NCBI GenBank assembly: GCA_902512755.1
Contig: CABXKB010000005.1
Span: forward strand, 1 to 64,000
Direction of reading: 5' to 3'
DNA length: 64,000 bases
Origin: an uncultured Bacteroidota bacterium
GTDB taxonomy: Bacteria; Bacteroidota; Bacteroidia; Flavobacteriales; Flavobacteriaceae
Shown piece after piece: positions 52,568-52,765 of the stretch. Below the pieces are notes generated by a model, which worked only from the letters and a program-made list of their open reading frames with translations, did not search any database and had not been told where the DNA came from. Both the position numbers and the translations under genes were made by a program. Within the stretch, counting starts at the first letter, position 1. Every line of letters begins with the position of its first letter.

Positions 52568-52657
52568 TTTGATAACCATTAAACAGGTGGTTATATTTGA
52601 GAACTAGTTCGTGCTGTGACAACAGCAAAGTTTAACTAAATATGAAAGGAGGTGTCT

Positions 52658-52720
52658 ATGTTTTATTATAATCATTTAAGAGATTCGAGACAGCAGATAC
52701 CCACAAGTGGTATGCTGTAG
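52658..52720 (+). CDS. 20-aa leader peptide/sORF MFYYNHLRDSRQQIPTSGML
   Basis: GAAAGGAGGTG (52644-52654) perfect SD, ATG 3 nt downstream of it (5 nt after the AGGAGG core), TAG stop. Confidence 0.55.
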   Translation: MFYYNHLRDSRQQIPTSGML

Positions 52721-52740
52721 CTTTCCTTATCTATTTATAA

Positions 52741-52765
52741 AGCGGATCGATGGATCCGCTTTTTT
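52741..52765 (+). terminator. Strong intrinsic terminator just upstream of the oxygenase start codon
   Basis: AGCGGATC-GATG-GATCCGCT perfect 8-bp stem + T6. Confidence 0.9.

Follow-up and report, generated by a model that had tools for sequence, protein, structure and literature searches.

The locus contains an unannotated, free-standing gene of ~160 nt that is built around a 20-codon open reading frame (ORF) and recurs in marine flavobacteria. It lies in the window, i.e., the whole stretch of 64,000 nt that was analysed. The element consists, in this order, of a promoter of the Bacteroidota type, a 5' hairpin, an extended Shine-Dalgarno (SD) sequence, an ORF of ~20 codons with a second hairpin at its end, the motif UCCUUAUCUA, and a terminator. 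The first-pass annotation had reported an SD followed by a short ORF, and both GAAAGGAGGTG-TCT-ATG and MFYYNHLRDSRQQIPTSGML* are indeed present in the sequence. The short ORF is real but belongs to something larger than had been described, namely a whole gene with promoter, hairpins, and terminator. Likewise, the SD, given as 11 nt, is perfectly complementary to the 16S rRNA, but its true length is 12 nt (GAAAGGAGGTGT at positions 52644-52655). Bacteroidota promoters follow the consensus TTTG-N19/20-TAnnTTTG, and the RNA presumably starts near position 52605. The individual features are as follows:

52568-52571, + strand: TTTG, putative -33 element, located 20 nt upstream of the -7 box and fitting TTTG-N19/20-TAnnTTTG
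52592-52599, + strand: TATATTTG, putative -7 box; TAnnTTTG occurs in 61 of 73 distinct elements and is near-invariant in an alignment of 34 sequences
52613-52626, + strand: SL1, 5' hairpin GCUGU-GACA-ACAGC with an invariant GACA loop; pairing in 100% of cells, changes on both sides in 3 of 5 pairs
52644-52655, + strand: extended SD GAAAGGAGGUGU, a perfect 12-nt complement of the 16S 3' tail of its own genome
52658-52720, + strand: 20-codon ORF MFYYNHLRDSRQQIPTSGML with the stop codon UAG; open in 59 of 59 tested sequences
52690-52718, + strand: SL2, hairpin that covers the final codons as far as the stop; covariation in 7 of 10 pairs, mean folding z of -2.5
52724-52733, + strand: UCCUUAUCUA, conserved tail motif, invariant or nearly so within the genus; resembles the 16S 3' end (UCCUUUCUA) and can pair with the SD
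52739-52765, + strand: SL3, intrinsic terminator AAAGCGGAUC-GAUG-GAUCCGCUUUUUU with an invariant GAUG loop; pairing in 100% of cells, changes on both sides in 6 of 10 pairs

Searches with BLAST and covariance models located the element in 35 of the 39 genomes of the genus, and the four genomes without it are just 56-82% complete. About ten other genera of the family have it as well, every one of them with small genomes. The named carriers are nearly all MAGs or SAGs, for example MS024-2A and relatives of Arcticimaribacter. Conservation in close relatives had been proposed as a check of the first observation; because the block of SD and ORF is kept across this range, it is not a product of chance. 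In the rest of the order, a covariance-model search of 398 genomes gave low-scoring matches only, none of them convincing, and those checked had no SD of the element type. No Rfam 15 family matched the window at its gathering threshold, the weak matches being far below the gathering scores. No phage record similar to the element was found, and a literature search retrieved no description of the gene. One MAG carries two differing copies (G019:C126 and G019:C78), which probably reflects a mixture of strains, as the second copy begins at a contig end. Another locus (L088, 6347 region) holds an apparently decayed copy, in which SL1, the SD (GGAAG), the tail motif, and the terminator are all damaged while the ORF is still open; its R2 score is 67.8, compared to at least 127 in relatives.

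The usual upstream neighbour of the element is a Na+/H+ antiporter gene. In five genomes (G796, G798-G800, G804), the antiporter gene is absent from the site, and a riboflavin synthase gene precedes the element. Downstream, we found a 2OG-Fe(II) oxygenase gene, a glycosyltransferase gene, a beta-lactamase-like gene, a flavoprotein-like gene, or nothing close. The element persists where the oxygenase gene, or even the antiporter gene, is missing. Since the neighbours change on both sides, the element is a free-standing gene and not a leader of the oxygenase gene.

The 16S rRNA of Bacteroidota ends with GGAACACC. The SD of the window element (GAAAGGAGGTGT) matches the 16S 3' end of its own genome (..GGAACACCTCCTTTCTA) exactly over 12 nt, with a predicted energy of -21.2 kcal/mol. 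The complementarity extends to 14 nt (UAGAAAGGAGGUGU) in many relatives, and the values for the element SD range from -17.6 to -23.3 kcal/mol across 48 genomes. In the window and in these 48 genomes, the SD-16S pairing is thus stronger than the threshold of -13 kcal/mol applied previously (PMC9976891). The SD of the element is among the strongest possible, and it is also exceptional in marine flavobacteria, which hardly ever rely on an SD. The first-pass annotation saw no such SD at the other starts it inspected in the window; among 53 window ORFs with 120 aa or more, the median is -2.0 kcal/mol, and the next strongest SD reaches -9.8 kcal/mol. In the window's genome (G000, ~55% complete), the pattern GAAAGGAGGTN{2,9}ATG occurs at two sites, the element and rpsU, and the same two are the only sites with GAAAGGAGGT...ATG. 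Most genomes of the genus likewise have these two GAAAGGAGGTN{2,9}ATG sites. When 301 genomes of the family were inspected for a 12-nt SD at a plausible start position, nearly all cases were rpsU or the element; the other 12-nt matches inspected apparently lie within unrelated genes or repeats. None of the 73 distinct elements has an A at position -3 or -6, the positions that serve SD-less initiation in F. johnsoniae (PMC9976891), and initiation should therefore depend on the SD.

The ORF is under an unusual constraint, in that its frame is protected while its amino acids are not. A total of 65 distinct complete ORFs is known, 63 of which have 19-21 codons. Length differences among these are whole codons, and the stop codon is TAG, TAA, or TGA, depending on the member. 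In 1128 codons, frame 0 contained no stop, compared to 89 and 121 stops in frames 1 and 2, respectively. A null model that kept the column changes on the tree and relabelled the letters predicted 24-28 stops in frame 0, and none of its replicates was free of stops. The synonymous versus nonsynonymous comparison suggested by the first-pass annotation gave a different picture for the peptide. Frame-wise parsimony counted 225 amino-acid changes, whereas (229 ± 6) were expected without coding. As a positive control, twelve 20-codon windows of the antiporter gene showed clear reductions, e.g., 49 versus (139 ± 18) changes, although a weak peptide signal could slip through a test of 20 codons. Third codon positions of the ORF are under almost the same constraint as first and second positions. 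The product has no match in Pfam, and the ORF does not encode bS21. Thus, with the frame protected and amino-acid changes not reduced, the act of translation, rather than the peptide, seems to be under selection.

A few members deviate from the common form of the ORF. In one MAG (L113, about 6350), the AUG is changed to AGG, which is either an assembly error or a real loss; a close relative (L135) is intact. In L095 and L121, the stop is lost, and the ORF extends to 25-26 codons. A single clade (L114-L118, L127, L053, L054) has an unrelated peptide (MSNTKYSSWNGLNDAFLVI) together with an altered tail. In this clade, AAUCAU, upstream of the SD, and AUGAUU, downstream of the tail, are able to pair, and may form a compensatory long-range helix.

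The RNA structure was evaluated with 31 diverse sequences and 500 shuffles. None of the shuffles reached the whole-structure measures of the real sequences. Within the ORF, it is the end that folds better than shuffles: among 53 distinct ORFs, the last 36 nt, which contain the SL2 part, had a mean z of -2.5, with 91% of the values below -1, whereas the first 36 nt, with a mean z of -0.4, were no better than shuffles. The loop of the terminator, C-GAUG-G (52748-52753), is invariant in all related loci while the stem changes freely. This is unusual in a plain terminator and makes the GAUG loop a suggestive candidate for a binding site. The consensus fold revealed no helix that competes with the terminator, whose stem is kept in 100% of cases. 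As a lookalike of the 16S end, UCCUUAUCUA might act as an effector. A lock of the SD by UCCUUAUCUA was also considered and rejected: the two can pair in 95.5% of cells but show almost no covariation, and in ensemble folding the SD-tail pairing had a mean of 0.32, less than the 0.45 obtained with the tail motif shuffled. The lock was kept only as a lead. In the window's own RNA, the SD-tail pairing amounts to 0.94, which is atypical of the members.

The second gene with an extended SD, rpsU, offers a point of comparison. In F. johnsoniae, bS21 contributes to masking the anti-SD, and the rpsU mRNA with its extended SD is translated better by ribosomes without bS21 (PMC9976891). The window's genome encodes a bS21 with Tyr54 (G000:C9) and has an intact anti-SD at its 16S end, GGAACACCTCCTTTCTA; Tyr54 is carried by bS21 across the genus. 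The first-pass annotation had envisaged a conditional translation of the short ORF, e.g., by bS21-deficient ribosomes. The data speak for SD-dependent conditional translation indirectly: apart from the element, the genome has one extended-SD gene, rpsU, which is the gene preferred by bS21-lacking ribosomes in F. johnsoniae (PMC9976891), and the 73 elements lack A at -3 and -6.

Most genomes studied possess an extended SD on both rpsU and the element. In seven genomes (G016, G130, G143, G369, G798, G811, and G812), the SD of rpsU is weak or absent (-9.9 to +0.2 kcal/mol), whereas that of the element amounts to -17.6 to -23.3 kcal/mol. Relatives with a readable 16S tail have it intact; these are G360, from the same genus as G143, and G799 and G800, whose gene context is that of G798. 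Because the element keeps its SD where rpsU has a weak one or none, the function of the element is independent of rpsU having an SD. In several marine lineages with small genomes, the element is kept but rpsU has lost its extended SD (rpsU loci L260, L261, L264, L265, L268, and L162 of G812, G811, G369, G798, G143, and G016, respectively), so that loss of the apparent bS21 autoregulation looks like a repeated event across these lineages. In another genome (G297), rpsU (L246) has the start region GAAAGGAGGTGTCTTATG, which is identical to the one found in most elements and hints at either a shared origin or strong convergence.

The element and the rpsU mRNA share a complementarity to the 16S tail of 9-13 nt or longer, a TAnnTTTG promoter of their own, and hosts in which the anti-SD is sequestered by bS21/bS18/bS6. 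They differ in that the rpsU mRNA encodes bS21 after a short leader without the hairpins of the element, whereas the element comprises 20 unconstrained codons, three hairpins, and a conserved tail motif. Furthermore, the gap between SD and AUG is ~4 nt shorter in the element, and the element retains its SD even where that of rpsU is lost.

With a probability of roughly 0.55, we interpret the element as a free-standing RNA gene of ~160 nt that is dedicated to anti-SD-exposed ribosomes and engages them in the translation of a dummy ORF. The target would be 30S subunits that are deficient in bS21 or otherwise unsequestered. The SD of 12-14 nt would capture such ribosomes, which would then translate the short dummy ORF, whose start, frame, length, and stop would be its only features that matter. 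The translating ribosomes would unwind SL2 and terminate. In this way, the element may sense this class of ribosomes, absorb it, or both. The output could be titration of these ribosomes or, alternatively, an action of the RNA in trans, with translation determining its state. That exposed-anti-SD ribosomes are the users of the element is suggested by analogy with the rpsU work in F. johnsoniae, and we infer that its function lies in the engagement or translation itself.

Alternatively, the ORF might encode a functional, hydrophilic peptide of ~20 aa (consensus M-S/F-Y-x-N-H-L-R-N-x-R-Q-Q-x-P) that is expressed when bS21 is scarce. The open frame and the stable length would fit such a peptide, the N-terminal residues recur between genera, and the MFY/MSY and LRN motifs are recognisable in most members. 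We consider this explanation unlikely, because the amino acids are conserved no better than expected from the nucleotide level, in a test that the antiporter passes strongly. The unrelated sequence in one clade (MSNTKYSSWNGL..), the C-terminal extensions, and the similar constraint on all three codon positions argue against it as well. The same low likelihood is assigned to a regulatory RNA that is translated only incidentally and whose SD serves as an antisense to the 16S tail. In that case, UCCUUAUCUA and the GAUG and GACA loops would do the work, for instance by mimicking the 16S tail and so binding bS21, or by pairing with another mRNA. Such an RNA would account for the strong nucleotide conservation, the covarying hairpins, and the invariant loops and tail motif, but it leaves unexplained why in-frame stops are absent, why the ORF length is constant, and why length changes come as whole codons.

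Still less likely is a decoy that competes specifically with the rpsU mRNA for bS21-free ribosomes and thereby tunes the autoregulation of bS21. It would be in line with the similar SDs of rpsU and the element, which are the sole genes with an extended SD in most genomes of the genus, and with the usually stronger SD of the element. However, in the seven genomes with a weak or absent rpsU SD, competition cannot be directed at the SD of rpsU. The original idea of an anti-SD decoy may still apply, though not as a simple companion of the rpsU SD, because several genomes keep the element SD after rpsU has lost its own. The other original idea, a leader peptide or attenuator of the IPNS-like oxygenase gene in which translation of the short ORF controls readthrough, was rejected on gene context and is very improbable. 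The terminator lies a few nucleotides before the ATG of the oxygenase gene, which directly follows in the window and in most of the genus, but in other genera its place is taken by a glycosyltransferase, beta-lactamase-like, or flavoprotein-like gene or by a distant gene, and no alternative antiterminator helix is evident in the consensus fold. Finally, a chance SD next to a chance ORF, or a decayed gene, as the short and unannotated ORF might suggest, has a negligible probability in view of at least 65 distinct conserved forms with covarying structure and of the different look of the apparently decayed L088 copy, where the parts are damaged together.

The element also differs from known systems of similar build. 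Leader-peptide attenuators of the trp or erm type have a short ORF with an SD, a hairpin over its end, and a terminator beside the stop. The element shares this layout but lacks a fixed downstream gene, a run of regulatory codons, and a visible alternative antiterminator. Dual-function sRNAs such as SgrS/SgrT and RNAIII combine a structured RNA with a short ORF, and their peptide sequence matters. The element resembles them in having a promoter, a terminator, and a short ORF on a structured RNA, whereas its frame, but not its amino acids, is selected and its SD is maximal for the 16S tail. With the Rfam families, it has in common that it is a structured intergenic RNA, but it belongs to no family of Rfam 15 at threshold.

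Going beyond the reading of the element as a gene for exposed-anti-SD ribosomes, we tentatively propose, and with clearly less confidence, that it belongs to a novel RNA class: a free-standing RNA that senses bS21-free, anti-SD-exposed ribosomes, acts through translation of a dummy ORF, controls ribosomal proteins or global translation in trans, and takes over where rpsU has lost its SD. If so, SD-dependent control in Flavobacteriales would not be confined to rpsU, contrary to the conclusion of a genome screen of 200 Flavobacteriales (PMC9976891). Here, a second gene with an SD equal to or stronger than that of rpsU occurs across about ten genera, also where the rpsU SD is lost. If the screen was based on annotated genes, it would probably have overlooked such a 20-codon ORF. 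The signature of a frame without a peptide suggests that selection acts on translation as such, and the question of specialised ribosomes in bacteria becomes directly testable with one reporter.
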